Shown one piece after another: positions 48,804 through 58,266 of a DNA stretch of 64,000 nucleotides. The DNA lies in assembly GCA_016282915.1 (NCBI GenBank), contig JAEELW010000042.1, forward strand, positions 1-64,000. The letters are read 5' to 3'. The notes beneath the pieces were generated by a model. That model was not told the DNA's origin and did not search any database. It saw nothing but the letters and a program-made list of their open reading frames with translations. The position numbers and the translations under genes are program-made. The DNA comes from Lachnospiraceae bacterium. Lineage in GTDB: Bacteria; Bacillota; Clostridia; Lachnospirales; Lachnospiraceae. Each line of letters opens with the position of its first letter. The stretch's first letter is position 1.

Positions 48804-48873
48804 GGTGAAGACAGGGGGACGGTCCTTTTGTCCTCATTTTTGAGGACAAAAGGACCGTCCCCCTGTCTTCACC
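48804..48873. repeat. 70-nt perfect palindromic repeat (GGACGGTCC family), copy 1
   Basis: 33-bp perfect arms GGTGAAGACAGGGGGACGGTCCTTTTGTCCTCA / TGAGGACAAAAGGACCGTCCCCCTGTCTTCACC around a TTTT loop. Confidence 0.95.
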
Positions 48874-51990: not shown

Positions 51991-52123
51991 AAATTATTGC
52001 TGTTCAGCGGCCTGCCGGCCATCGGACGTAAGGTGCCTGCGCCATGCAAAACCGGCTACGCCGGTGCAGGCCCAAATGATCACATTTTATCGAAAATACT
52101 ATACATTACAGAGAGACGACAGG

Positions 52124-52789
52124 ATGAAACAGATACTTGTAGTGGAAGATAATAAGGACTATCAGGAGCTGCTGGAGAATTACCTTTCCAACGCGGGTTT
52201 TACTGTTACCGCAGCCGGTAACGGCCTGGATGCGGTCGATATCCTGGAGGATAAGGAGTTTGACCTGATCATCCTGGATGTGATGCTGCCGAAGATCGAC
52301 GGTTTTACGCTTTGCGAGCTGATACGGAAGAAAAGTGATGTGCCCGTTGTGATGCTCACCGCGCGCTCTGCGGAAGAGGATCAGATGCGTGGATATGAGC
52401 TTAAGGTGGATGAGTATATCTCGAAGACCGTATCCATGCCGCTCATCGTCAGCAAGATCGGCGCGATCCTTCGCAGGAGCAGCGGCACGACAGAGGAAGA
52501 GCGCATCTCGTTTAACGGAGTAGTGCTCGATCCGGGCAGCCATACGGTGCAGATCGACGGCGCTGCGGTGGAATTTACCTTAAAAGAGTTTGAGATCCTG
52601 AGTCTGATCATGAGCGCAAAGGGAGCTGTGGTCACGAGAAAATCGCTTCTGTCAAAGCTCTGGGATTATGAGTATTATGATGACAGCAGGATCGTTGATA
52701 CCCATATCAAAAATATCCGAAAGAAGCTGGGGGAGCGGGATTTTATCGTGACCGTCCGCGGGATCGGCTATAAGGCTGCACTTTCATGA
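52124..52789 (+). CDS. OmpR-family response regulator
   Basis: ILVVEDNKDYQELL, LIILDVMLPKIDG, VDTHIKNIRKKLGE; ATG 52124. Confidence 0.94.
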   Translation: MKQILVVEDNKDYQELLENYLSNAGFTVTAAGNGLDAVDILEDKEFDLIILDVMLPKIDGFTLCELIRKKSDVPVVMLTARSAEEDQMRGYELKVDEYISKTVSMPLIVSKIGAILRRSSGTTEEERISFNGVVLDPGSHTVQIDGAAVEFTLKEFEILSLIMSAKGAVVTRKSLLSKLWDYEYYDDSRIVDTHIKNIRKKLGERDFIVTVRGIGYKAALS

Positions 52790-54117
52790 AGAAGCTTTCG
52801 ATCAAAATGTTTCTTTCCTTTCTGCTGATGTCGCTTCTGATCATAGGAGCGGTGTATCTGTGTATCTGTTTTCTTGTGCCCTATGCGGGAGAGAAGAAAA
52901 ACGAAGAATATCTGAATGAGATTTCCGCGCAGCTGGCGGAGCGCTGCATGAACGTCTCCTATGCGGAGGCGGAGGAAATGATCGATGATATGGCCCTGCG
53001 GGAGGGCGTGGGTGCAAAACTGATCGACGCCGATACCTACCTTAAGAACGGAGCGGTGGTGGAGCTGTTTTTTCCGCTGCGCCTGTCGGACCGGGATGGG
53101 GAATATGTTCTGTGTGTCACCGGCGGCGCATACAGAACGAAAGCATTTCAGAGGAGCATGCTGCTCGGTCTGCCCTTCGTCGCTGCGCTCGCAGTCGTTT
53201 TATCCCTGGTGGGGGCAAAGATCTTTTCCTATTATATGAGAAAGCCCATCGTCCGGATGAGTAAGATCGCCGAACGCATGGCGGAGCAGGATTTCGGCTG
53301 GTACTGTCCGGACGAGCGGGATGATGAGATCGGAGTGCTGGCAAAGAGTCTGAACAGGCTTTCCGATGAATTGAGTTCCGCACTTTCAAAACTGAACGAT
53401 AAAAATCTCTATCTGAAAAACGAGATCGAACTGGAGAAGGAGCGGGAGAGAAGAAGGATGCTCTTTTTCTCGGGCGTATCCCATGAGCTGAAAACGCCCA
53501 TATCCGTGGCGATCGGGCAGATCGACGGCATGCGGGAGGGGATCGGGGTCTATAAGGACCGGGATAAGTATCTGGAGAAATGCAGCGAGACACTTAAGGG
53601 CCTGCTTGATTTTATCAATGAGATACTGCTCGTGTCACATATCGATATGGGAGATGTAAAGAAGGAAGAGATCCTGAAGATCGATGCGATCCTTGACGAG
53701 GAGACCGCTTTTTATGACGACCTGATCAGTGAGAGGAATATCGGACTGGTCTATGAGGTGTCCGATAATGTGGACTTTAAAGGAGATGAAAGGCTTCTCA
53801 AAAAAGCACTGGGAAATGTGCTTGGGAATGCTTTTAAGTATACGCCCGAGGGCGGTAAGGTGAGTATCCGGCTGAAGAAAGAGGAGGATAGGGAGACGGG
53901 ATCCGTGAAAACGGAGCTTACGGTGACAAATGCTCCCGCGCATATCGATGAAGCGCATCTTCCGCATCTGTTTGAGGCTTTTTACAGAGCTGACGGAAGC
54001 GGGACGGAAGGAAGCGGACTCGGTCTTTATATCAGTGCGATGGTCTTTGAACTCTGCGGCGCGGAATATGGGATCGCGAATACGGAGGACGGCGTGGAAT
54101 TCCGTCTGCGGCAGTGA
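52786..54117 (+). CDS. Sensor histidine kinase
   Basis: HAMP; FSGVSHELKTPISVAIGQI; GNVLGNAFKYTPEGG; GSGLGLYI. Confidence 0.93.
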   Translation: MKKLSIKMFLSFLLMSLLIIGAVYLCICFLVPYAGEKKNEEYLNEISAQLAERCMNVSYAEAEEMIDDMALREGVGAKLIDADTYLKNGAVVELFFPLRLSDRDGEYVLCVTGGAYRTKAFQRSMLLGLPFVAALAVVLSLVGAKIFSYYMRKPIVRMSKIAERMAEQDFGWYCPDERDDEIGVLAKSLNRLSDELSSALSKLNDKNLYLKNEIELEKERERRRMLFFSGVSHELKTPISVAIGQIDGMREGIGVYKDRDKYLEKCSETLKGLLDFINEILLVSHIDMGDVKKEEILKIDAILDEETAFYDDLISERNIGLVYEVSDNVDFKGDERLLKKALGNVLGNAFKYTPEGGKVSIRLKKEEDRETGSVKTELTVTNAPAHIDEAHLPHLFEAFYRADGSGTEGSGLGLYISAMVFELCGAEYGIANTEDGVEFRLRQ

Positions 54118-54121
54118 CAAA

Positions 54122-54172
54122 CTTCACATAAACTCCACATACGCTACATTCACACTACAGGAAGACTATGAT
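54122..54172 (+). promoter_or_regulatory. Candidate response-regulator-activated promoter: CTTCACAT/CTCCACAT and CGCTACAT/CACTACAG repeats (11-bp phased) + TATGAT
   Basis: Repeats at 54122, 54133, 54142, 54153; TATGAT at 54167-54172. Confidence 0.5.
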
Positions 54173-54206
54173 AAAGTAAGCGCAATAAGTCATTGCGCTT
54201 ACTTTA
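54172..54206 (+). other. Leader hairpin H1 (15-bp perfect stem)
   Basis: TAAAGTAAGCGCAAT-aagtc-ATTGCGCTTACTTTA. Confidence 0.85.
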
Positions 54207-54273
54207 ACGCTCCGCGGGGATGCGCACGGATTTGTATGGAAATATGCCGCTTTCAGCGGCCGAAATCCGGCGC

Positions 54274-54310
54274 AGTAAACGACAAAACGAAAAGAGTTTT
54301 GTCGTTTACT
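54274..54310 (+). other. Leader hairpin H2 (15-bp perfect stem), overlapping H3
   Basis: AGTAAACGACAAAAC-gaaaaga-GTTTTGTCGTTTACT. Confidence 0.85.
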
Positions 54311-54361
54311 ATAAGTAAAAAAGCAGAGCCGCGGGACTCTGCTTTTTTACTTATAGTAAAC
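54304..54361. terminator. Leader hairpin H3, 25-bp stem containing terminator core
   Basis: GTTTACTATAAGTAAAAAAGCAGAG-ccgcggga-CTCTGCTTTTTTACTTATAGTAAAC. Confidence 0.85.
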
Positions 54362-54397
54362 TGCGGACCGATCAAAATCAGGAGGAAGAACAGAAAT

Positions 54398-55276
54398 ATG
54401 AAGATTGATGTAAAAGATGTGACCATGATCTATTCATCCGGTAAGAAGGCTTTATCGGATGTGAGCTTCAGCTTAAAGAGTCCGGAGTTCGTGGGCATAC
54501 TGGGACCGAACGGCGCGGGGAAATCCACGCTTATGAAGCTTATGACCGCAGGGCTTAAGGAGACGAAGGGAGAGATCCTTCTGGACGATAAGAAGCTGCT
54601 GGATCAGGAGCAGAAGCTTAAAAGCAGACTGGGTTATCTCCCCCAGAGCTTCGGGCTCTTCGACGAGCTTACGGTATGGCAGTTTCTGGATTATATGGCT
54701 GCGTTAAAGGGGATCAAGGATAAGTCCGAGATCGAATGGGCCATGGAACAGACCGGACTCAGCGAGCGCAGAAAGATCCGGGTGGGAAATCTCTCCGGAG
54801 GACAGAAGCAGCGTGTGGGTATCGCGCAGGCCATCATGGGTCACCCGGAGCTGATGATACTCGATGAGCCTACGGTGGGGCTGGATCCGGAGGAAAGAGT
54901 GAGATTCCGGAATATCTTTTCGGAAATGTCCTCCGAGCGTATCGTGTTTCTTTCGACACATATCGTGGATGATGTGCAGGCTGTCTGCAACAGGGTGCTG
55001 GTGATCTATGGCGGAAGGATACTTTTTGACGGAAGCCCTGCCGGGCTGATCGAACAGACCGTGGATCATGTGGGTTCCTTTATCCGTAAGGTGGATGATA
55101 TCCTTCCCAAAGACTGCGAGATCGTATCCAGGATCAATACCCGGAACGGCGTGCTGACACGTATCGTGGCAGGGACGCTGCCGGATTATGTGGACAGATG
55201 CGAACCCAGTCTGGAAGATGCCTATCTTTACTGCATACACAGCAGTGCAAAGAAGGAGGATGAGCATGAGGGCTAA
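54398..55276 (+). CDS. ABC transporter ATPase
   Basis: GPNGAGKSTLM, LSGGQKQRVGIAQAI, MILDEPTVGLDP; ATG 54398 after AGGAGGAAG. Confidence 0.94.
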   Translation: MKIDVKDVTMIYSSGKKALSDVSFSLKSPEFVGILGPNGAGKSTLMKLMTAGLKETKGEILLDDKKLLDQEQKLKSRLGYLPQSFGLFDELTVWQFLDYMAALKGIKDKSEIEWAMEQTGLSERRKIRVGNLSGGQKQRVGIAQAIMGHPELMILDEPTVGLDPEERVRFRNIFSEMSSERIVFLSTHIVDDVQAVCNRVLVIYGGRILFDGSPAGLIEQTVDHVGSFIRKVDDILPKDCEIVSRINTRNGVLTRIVAGTLPDYVDRCEPSLEDAYLYCIHSSAKKEDEHEG

Positions 55277-57473
55277 ACTTATGGGAGTCGAGTTGAAGAG
55301 ACTCCTTATGAATAAAAAAACATATCTTGTGATCGTCCTGAACATCCTGATGACAGCCCTGGGCTTTCTTCCGTTTGTGAAGGGCGTTTTCCTGGATCCT
55401 TATTATGCATATACATCTTCCCTGACGAATAATGTCCTGATACCTTTTGCTTTCGGGGGTTTTGCGGCAGCGCTGATCTGGGGACTGTATGTGATAACGG
55501 ATGCGGACAGGGCAATAAAAAAAGGCGCAGAAGAGATGACGGGGGCGTATACGGATGAAAAGGCAGTGTCCCATGCCCGTGTCAGCGCTTTTATGATCGT
55601 TTCTGCGGCCACTGCTCTGGTCTGCATGATCCTTTTCCTGCCCCTTTGTATGAACAGGATGGATTATCTTTTTACATTTAAATGGTATCTCCTTTATTCC
55701 TTCGCGTATATCCTGCCGGGGGTATGGATGACGATAGCGCTGTGCAGCGGGCTTTACAACATATCCCGCAATGTGAGCGTATCCCTGATCGTAGTCCTGC
55801 TCCTTACGATATCACAGTTTTCACCGCTTAGCGAAACAGACCTGTTTCTGCGCTGGAATATCCCCTGTATTTTTGAAGTGTCCGACTGTTACGGATCGGT
55901 ATCGGTGATACGCTTCCTGTATTATTCCAGAGTGGCGCTCTTGTTCCTGTTCTTTGCATTTTATCTTCTGTCCGTGAAGTTTATAAGGAAATACCGCTAT
56001 GGAGCACTCAGGTCGTTTGCATTAAATCTTAAGAAGCCGGTATCCTGTATCCCTGCGGTGATGAGTCTGGCGGCCGCGCTACTTCTGATCAGCTTCGAGC
56101 CCTTTGTGGATCACTCTCCGGTAGTGGAATACAGCGATGAGTGGTACGATGCTCCGTATCAGGGAAAATGCAGAAGTTATGAGGCTGAGGTAAACTTTAA
56201 TACGTTGCTGGGAACACTTAATGGCGAACTGAACATAGATCTCACGGAAGCAGCCGGACAGGAACTCCTGTTTGAGATAAGAAGCGGGATCAAAGTCAGG
56301 AGTGTAACACTGGACGGCGAAAAGCTGGATCATTCGATCGGCTATTTTACCGAGGATAATAATAAGATCAATCTTGGCGTTAAGAAACTGGTCGTCAAAA
56401 ATCCGAATAAAAAGACCGGCAGACTTAAGATCGTATACGGAGGATATCCTGCGATATCCAACTCCATGTACAGAAGAGACGGGTATTCATTCTGCGATTC
56501 CGTAGACCGCGATTATATCAAGCTCGACGATGTCAGTGTTGCGCCTCAGGCATGGGGGCTGGGATCGGATAAACTGCCTGTGGTACGGATCAATATTCCG
56601 GCGGATCATAATCCCACCTCCTGGGGTAAGGGTCTTAAAAAGATAAAGGAAAATGCTGACGGCAGCGTATGCTGGGAATGCAGGGAAGATGTACCCATTA
56701 TAGAATCCGGCGTTAATAACACAGAGCAGGTGAACAGCGATACTGCATTTCTGTATGCAAAAAAATATGAAAAGACGATCCTGGAAAACAGGCTGGTTGA
56801 GTCCATAAAAGATGTGATGAGCTACTGTGATGAGCACTACGGTAAACTTAAGTTTGCGGATGAATCGGCTGGGATCCGGATCCAGCAGATCAGTAACGAC
56901 TTCGGCGGAGGCGGAGCAGGATACGGCTATGTTTATATGGATGAGAACTTTCTCTCGCCCGAGACTTTGTCGGATGATAATAAAGGCGGCAACAAAAACG
57001 AGACCTTTATGCACGAGATCATACACCTGTACTGGGGAGATCTGGGCTGTTTTCTTGAGGATGACGGATTATGGTCGGTTGAGGGGCTGGATGTATACAC
57101 TACATACAGGATCGTTAAGGAGAAATACGGCGAGCTTTATGCGAAAAAGTATTATGTGGATAAGTGGACGGAGGCGGTTAAGCATCAGAACAGGAATTTC
57201 TATTTCAGACACCCGGAGTATATCGACATCCTGCCCGAAAGCTATCAGGCCTCGATAAAAGATTCGGTGGGGGGCATAAACAGATACAACCGAATGCCCT
57301 TGATGCTCCTGAAGGCTGAAGAGAAGCTCGGAGGAGAAGAGGCCATGGATGAGGTCTTAAGGCAGCTGTACGAAAACGGCAGCGGTAACGAATGGGACGG
57401 CAGTGAAGGACAGACCATGCAGGATTTTCTGGACCTCGCAGGGCTAACGGAGGAGGATATCAAAATTGATTAA
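55266..57473 (+). CDS. ABC permease-like membrane protein with C-terminal M1-like metallopeptidase domain
   Basis: N-terminal six or more TM segments; C-terminal ETFMHEIIHLYWGDLG (HExxH). Confidence 0.82.
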   Translation: MRAKLMGVELKRLLMNKKTYLVIVLNILMTALGFLPFVKGVFLDPYYAYTSSLTNNVLIPFAFGGFAAALIWGLYVITDADRAIKKGAEEMTGAYTDEKAVSHARVSAFMIVSAATALVCMILFLPLCMNRMDYLFTFKWYLLYSFAYILPGVWMTIALCSGLYNISRNVSVSLIVVLLLTISQFSPLSETDLFLRWNIPCIFEVSDCYGSVSVIRFLYYSRVALLFLFFAFYLLSVKFIRKYRYGALRSFALNLKKPVSCIPAVMSLAAALLLISFEPFVDHSPVVEYSDEWYDAPYQGKCRSYEAEVNFNTLLGTLNGELNIDLTEAAGQELLFEIRSGIKVRSVTLDGEKLDHSIGYFTEDNNKINLGVKKLVVKNPNKKTGRLKIVYGGYPAISNSMYRRDGYSFCDSVDRDYIKLDDVSVAPQAWGLGSDKLPVVRINIPADHNPTSWGKGLKKIKENADGSVCWECREDVPIIESGVNNTEQVNSDTAFLYAKKYEKTILENRLVESIKDVMSYCDEHYGKLKFADESAGIRIQQISNDFGGGGAGYGYVYMDENFLSPETLSDDNKGGNKNETFMHEIIHLYWGDLGCFLEDDGLWSVEGLDVYTTYRIVKEKYGELYAKKYYVDKWTEAVKHQNRNFYFRHPEYIDILPESYQASIKDSVGGINRYNRMPLMLLKAEEKLGGEEAMDEVLRQLYENGSGNEWDGSEGQTMQDFLDLAGLTEEDIKID

Positions 57474-58231: not shown

Positions 58232-58266
58232 AATGAGGACAAGGGGACAGTCCCTTTGTCCTCATT
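58232..58266. repeat. Palindromic GGAC(A/G)GTCC-family repeat, copy 2
   Basis: AATGAGGACAAGGGGAC-A-GTCCCTTTGTCCTCATT, 17-nt arms with one G/T mismatch. Confidence 0.85.

Follow-up and report, generated by a model that had tools for sequence, protein, structure and literature searches.

The leader studied here separates a two-component regulatory system from an ABC transporter operon in the window (the 64,000-nucleotide stretch of Lachnospiraceae DNA that was analysed). Its coordinates and those of the flanking genes are collected in Table 1. The C-terminal part of the ABC permease subunit at 55263-57473 contains the gluzincin-like motif HEIIHLYWGD, which suggests a fusion with an M1-like peptidase; no Pfam or NCBIfam match was found.

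A sequence-only reading of the same DNA had described H1, a small hairpin, H2 and H3 in this leader. All are present and perfect where it placed them, and it was also right that the right arm of H2 and the left arm of H3 have seven nucleotides in common. The leader folds at -114 kcal/mol, compared with -62.7 +/- 4.8 kcal/mol in shuffled sequences (z-score -10.8; none of 200 shuffles as stable), and its longest perfect stem is 25 bp, compared with a maximum of 11 bp among 300 dinucleotide shuffles. Given this stability and stem length, the hairpins are not a product of chance. That reading overlooked a long bulged middle stem (54222-54273) and a promoter with direct repeats (54121-54172), and it did not recognize 54172-54313 as a dispersed repeat.

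Table 1. Features of the leader and its flanking genes, in window coordinates
Feature	Position	Strand	Details
OmpR/PhoB-type response regulator	52121-52789	+	Pfam Response_reg, Trans_reg_C
Sensor histidine kinase	52786-54117	+	Pfam HAMP, HisKA, HATPase_c
Histidine kinase stop codon	54115-54117		
Leader, kinase stop to ABC ATPase start	54118-54397		280 nt
Four head-to-tail 11-bp units	54121-54164	+	ACTTCACATAA, ACTCCACATAC, GCTACATTCAC, ACTACAGGAAG; kept in six orthologous leaders
-35-like CTACAT	54144-54149	+	overlaps third 11-bp unit
-10 box TATGAT	54167-54172	+	kept in 6 of 6 orthologues
MITE-like repeat (type C)	54172-54313	+	H1, core, middle stem and H2; TA at both ends; copies elsewhere; empty sites
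H1, left terminal hairpin of repeat	54172-54206	+	arms 54172-54186/54192-54206; perfect 15-bp stem; TATAG-type end, here TAAAG
Core and bulged middle stem with inner hairpin	54207-54273	+	core ACGCTCCGCGGGGATGCGC; model R1 match; cross-genus covariation
Small (inner) hairpin	54246-54260	+	
H2, right terminal hairpin of repeat	54274-54313	+	arms 54274-54288/54296-54310; perfect 15-bp stem; ends CTATA
H2/H3 overlap	54304-54310		GTTTACT, 7 nt
H3, native intrinsic terminator (54323-54348) extended by repeat end	54304-54361	+	arms 54304-54328/54337-54361; perfect 25-bp palindrome, GCAGAG...CTCTGC-TTTTTT; terminator seen in orthologues
ABC ATPase ATG	54398		
ABC transporter ATPase, first gene 3' of leader	54398-55276	+	Pfam ABC_tran

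The 11-bp units are kept in the orthologous leaders amid divergent surrounding sequence, and a 20-mer from this block occurs once in the window (0.01 expected). They are probably the binding box of the upstream response regulator, and transcription is predicted to start at about 54179.

A dispersed repeat with empty sites in orthologous loci

Six other loci share the regulator-kinase-ABC gene order, with kinase identities of 73-78% or 58% and ABC ATPase identities of 95-96% (four relatives) or 79% (a fifth). Those from a known organism belong to Lachnospiraceae, including strain NK4A179. Five of their leaders were measured, at 118-153 nt; the sixth locus is L064. Segment 54172-54313 is absent from all six, where an intrinsic terminator begins 8-9 nt past the direct repeats and TATGAT. 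Removal of 54174-54313 from the window, with one TA kept, leaves TATGATAAGTAAAAAAGCAGAG, whose 22 nt equal the length of TATGATAAAAATACAGGCAGAG in four of the empty orthologues. A second empty site corresponds to a copy in genome G031 that is flanked by a TetR-type regulator gene and an ABC gene; the orthologous site in the window's genome has no repeat and is nearly equal in length. The TA duplication is read from these two comparisons, both between species and the second only approximate in length.

The same segment recurs at unrelated places in the 98 relatives searched, often at the extreme ends of contigs, as expected because repeats break assemblies. The window's own genome has a second copy (C174:364-506) with 87% identity to 54172-54313, and the match stops at these same two positions. 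The repeat is 142-143 bp long, and nearly all full-length copies start with TATAG and end with CTATA, past which the flanks are unrelated. A diagnostic 22-mer is found in about 171 copies in one genome of the same genus (G010) and in 1-9 copies in most other positive genomes, and its reversed pattern has no match in any genome. Solo H1 units of about 35 bp also exist, as do copies that lack the middle. No copy was detected in the plasmids, phages and viral contigs searched.

Judged by the description of miniature elements in PMC2229807, the repeat is a dispersed, multi-copy, non-coding sequence of less than 200 bp with terminal inverted repeats, TATAGTAAGCG and TATAGTAAACG, that are identical at 10 of 11 positions in the family consensus. 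It also has TA termini and a target-site duplication, with one empty-site length exact and the second approximate. The consensus contains stop codons in four of six frames, and a frame that stays open across so short a repeat is no evidence of coding. With regard to the A+T-rich composition of MITEs, the GC content of the repeat is 45.8%, compared with 51.9% for the window.

The search for a mobilizing partner covered DDE_3 and Y1 genes, and among these no transposase with ends matching the repeat was found. IS630-type DDE_3 transposases occur in only 2 of 35 genomes of the genus and are absent from the window's genome, and IS630 was set aside as a partner given this near absence. Y1/RAYT genes exist, but none of those found adjoins the element. 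A possible 3-kb autonomous element (G001:C40) resolved into individual short copies, either H1 or partial, that lie between metabolic genes.

Taken as a whole, the leader is very probably a conserved promoter-plus-terminator module into which a MITE-like, non-autonomous repeat has been inserted. In this scenario, the ancestral leader would have consisted of the 11-bp repeats and TATGAT with a terminator 8-9 nt on, and the ABC start codon would have lain about 62 nt beyond the predicted start of transcription; the promoter was presumably used by the adjacent response regulator. The 142-bp element would have entered at a TA that overlaps the last base of the -10 box, regenerating the box. The predicted leader, about 62 nt before, would thereby have grown to about 219 nt, and the terminator, at first only a few bases into the transcript, would have been displaced to about +145. 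H1 and H2, along with the middle stem, are hairpins of the element itself, and H3 is the old terminator.

The native terminator and the H2/H3 overlap

Each of the six orthologues has an intrinsic terminator at the corresponding position, and these terminators fold at -15 to -23 kcal/mol. Four of them carry GGCAGAGC..GCTCTGC-T5-6, and the other two have an unrelated hairpin, AACAGGTAGGAACCGATATGCGGTCCTGCCTGTT-TTTATTTT, at the same position. That the position is kept while the hairpin sequence changes suggests selection for termination between the promoter and the ABC gene. From these comparisons, the terminator core of H3 is judged to predate the repeat insertion. The perfect 25-bp arms are found only in the window, where the left arm enters the right end of the repeat (GTTTACTATA) and the right arm is TATAGTAAAC. 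We suspect that the arms became longer and perfectly matched only once the repeat was in place; template switching on an imperfect palindrome would be the simplest route, and perfect arms on both sides are what it would yield. For about 18 nt immediately 3' of H3 (54362-54379, TGCGGACCGATCAAAATC), the orthologous leaders have nothing equivalent; this stretch possibly stems from the same rearrangement that lengthened H3.

The sequence-only reading had proposed an attenuator or riboregulator. In a true switch of this kind, a signal would choose between H2 and H3, and H2 would act as the anti-terminator. A strong terminator does stand before the ABC operon, and the two hairpins do overlap. However, the H3 partners of the overlap 54304-54310 are bases 54355-54361, which RNA polymerase reaches only after the U-tract (54343-54348), and thus the overlap cannot decide termination there. 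In folding computations for a transcript ending at 54346-54349, formation reaches 97% for H2 and about 100% for the H3 core. The core has a pairing probability of about 1 with H2 intact and stays formed after full transcription, so no anti-terminator that excludes it was seen. Full H2 with a trimmed H3 (-43.7 kcal/mol) differs from a trimmed H2 with full H3 (-44.9 kcal/mol) by only 1.2 kcal/mol; H2 and the outer pairs of H3 would exchange by branch migration that leaves the terminator core untouched. With a start near 54179, the ABC transcript would contain only part even of H1, whose mean pair probability is then about 0.5. The leader matches no Rfam riboswitch or leader family at the gathering score. 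H2, like H1 and the small hairpin, is part of a transposable repeat and is absent from every orthologous leader, which speaks against these hairpins as evolved alternative RNA folds. We consider a switch of this kind very improbable.

What survives of the attenuator proposal is that a terminator, conserved in six orthologues, separates the ABC operon from a regulated promoter, so that premature termination there is plausible. This native terminator could by itself suffice as a simple attenuator behind that promoter, or set the basal read-through, with or without the element. Its presence with a U-tract between the promoter and the ABC start in all orthologues, including the two with an unrelated hairpin, argues for such a role. 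Yet the terminator may merely end the regulator-kinase transcript, the hairpin begins at about +4, so close to the predicted start that efficient termination is doubtful, and no alternative structure responsive to a ligand or protein was seen. We regard this role as a serious candidate, although we lean slightly against it. In the inserted state that we favour, the leader should act as a constitutive, partly read-through terminator and not as an H2/H3 switch.

Covariation and the wider repeat family

Across 15 diverse full-length copies (52 pairs), 96.9% of cells are paired and 14 pairs have changed on both sides; the covariation score was reached by none of 500 shuffles, and in slid controls about 35-43% of cells were paired. 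H1 has compensatory changes in 7 of its 15 pairs, with 98.6% of cells paired, and H2 has four pairs changed on both sides, with 95.1% paired; DNA-level correction can also keep such palindromes matched, so this is no proof of RNA function.

A 19-nt core, ACGCTCCGCGAGGATGCGC, which contains the hairpin UCC-GCGA-GGA, was found in 52 of 299 family genomes sampled (51 genera) when one mismatch was allowed, with a maximum of 73 copies per genome. Some single matches (e.g., L126 and L145) may be chance or coding; the reversed control had none in any genome. Most matches share one layout: a 5' hairpin whose sequence is genus-specific, then the core, then a bulged stem that encloses a GCGC-closed inner hairpin, and finally a 3' hairpin. 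Among 24 diverse cores, covariation is 0.478, compared with 0.139 when shuffled and less than 0.15 in every slid version, and 63 cells have changed on both sides, mostly in the middle stem. A covariance model (R1) scores the window copy at 75.9 bits (E 6e-14 in a search of its own genome), this sequence being among the 24 on which the model was trained. R1 finds five copies in the window's genome, of which three, including the window's, were training sequences, and it matches 5 of 196 genomes of the class, two of which belong to other families, one of these (G461) being doubtful by eye.

Another branch of the repeat family is also represented in the window's genome, by at least three copies (L184, L185 and L186, at C4:4236, C135:12133 and C173:29320), so that two branches coexist. 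A branch whose 5' hairpin is of the form AGGAA...TTCCT lies directly 3' of intrinsic terminators at L127-L134, L137, L144, L150, L185 and similar loci, where the T-run of the terminator is also the start of the repeat's 5' hairpin. In a strict test, 9 of 14 copies lay behind terminators, compared with 27 of 900 random positions, which suggests that this branch prefers terminator T-tracts.

No Rfam family fits the repeat core; only an FMN riboswitch and a T-box exceeded the gathering score, both types at other loci. The core sequence was not found in print in the literature searched. One survey of bacterial palindromic and stem-loop repeats mentions none of the Lachnospiraceae terms looked for, and the relevant passages of another name only Clostridium species among Clostridia. 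The family is large, occurs in gut and rumen Lachnospiraceae, and appears to be undescribed. Tentatively, and with less confidence than in the terminator's own role, we propose a superfamily, mainly of Lachnospiraceae, in which the shared core, the UCC-GCGA-GGA hairpin followed by the bulged covarying stem and its inner hairpin, would be a functional RNA or single-stranded DNA recognized by the mobilizing machinery or a host factor, with end hairpins that vary freely between genera.

The repeat may have acquired a regulatory role since its insertion. Its structured RNA core could alter how stable the ABC mRNA is, or how it is translated or regulated: compensatory change across genera preserves the core and middle stem, and an effect on mRNA stability is reported for ERIC-type repeats (PMC2229807). 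However, only one orthologous locus has the repeat, and locus-specific selection was not seen. We consider such co-option unlikely here.

Comparison with known leaders and repeats

In classical leader attenuators, an intrinsic terminator lies in the leader behind a regulated promoter. The present leader shares this arrangement, but differs in that no anti-terminator competes with the terminator core.

From the perspective of known bacterial MITEs, Correia/NEMIS, RUP and ERIC elements are shorter than 200 bp, with TA termini, short terminal inverted repeats and transcripts predicted to form stable stem-loops (PMC2229807). The repeat described here is likewise short, non-coding and multi-copy, with TA at both ends, stable stem-loops and empty sites in relatives. 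In contrast to these elements, each of its ends is a perfect hairpin, and its core and middle stem covary across many genera. No sequence relation to them is apparent when they are compared by description, and no partner insertion sequence was found for the repeat.

REP/REPIN sequences, which are moved by Y1 transposases (RAYT; PMC2817692, PMC3116915), are palindromic extragenic repeats too, and solo units, here of H1, likewise exist. In those systems the repeat flanks the RAYT gene, whereas the RAYT-like gene of the window's genome is flanked by another palindrome, GGGGACGGTCC, and no Y1 gene was found beside the element. Another palindromic repeat, GGGGACGGTCCTTTTGTCC, occurs in the window at 48815-48862 and 58243-58261 (three matches, 0.02 expected); repeats of this type also flank the only RAYT-like Y1 transposase gene in the genome (L163:1462-2202).

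Cultured rumen Lachnospiraceae would offer a way to study this family of structured repeats, which is widespread and absent from Rfam. Should the core prove to be recognized as RNA or folded single-stranded DNA, the question would arise of how small repeats spread across genera. Further parallels are the SPRITE and BOX repeats of Streptococcus pneumoniae, which are likewise small, structured and intergenic or regulatory, some of them resembling terminators or riboswitches (PMC10969869). SPRITE is itself terminator-like, whereas the repeat described here lies upstream of a native terminator. A mobile repeat that lands on the junction of a promoter and a terminator can thus yield a striking multi-hairpin leader, and is a trap for the de novo prediction of riboregulators.
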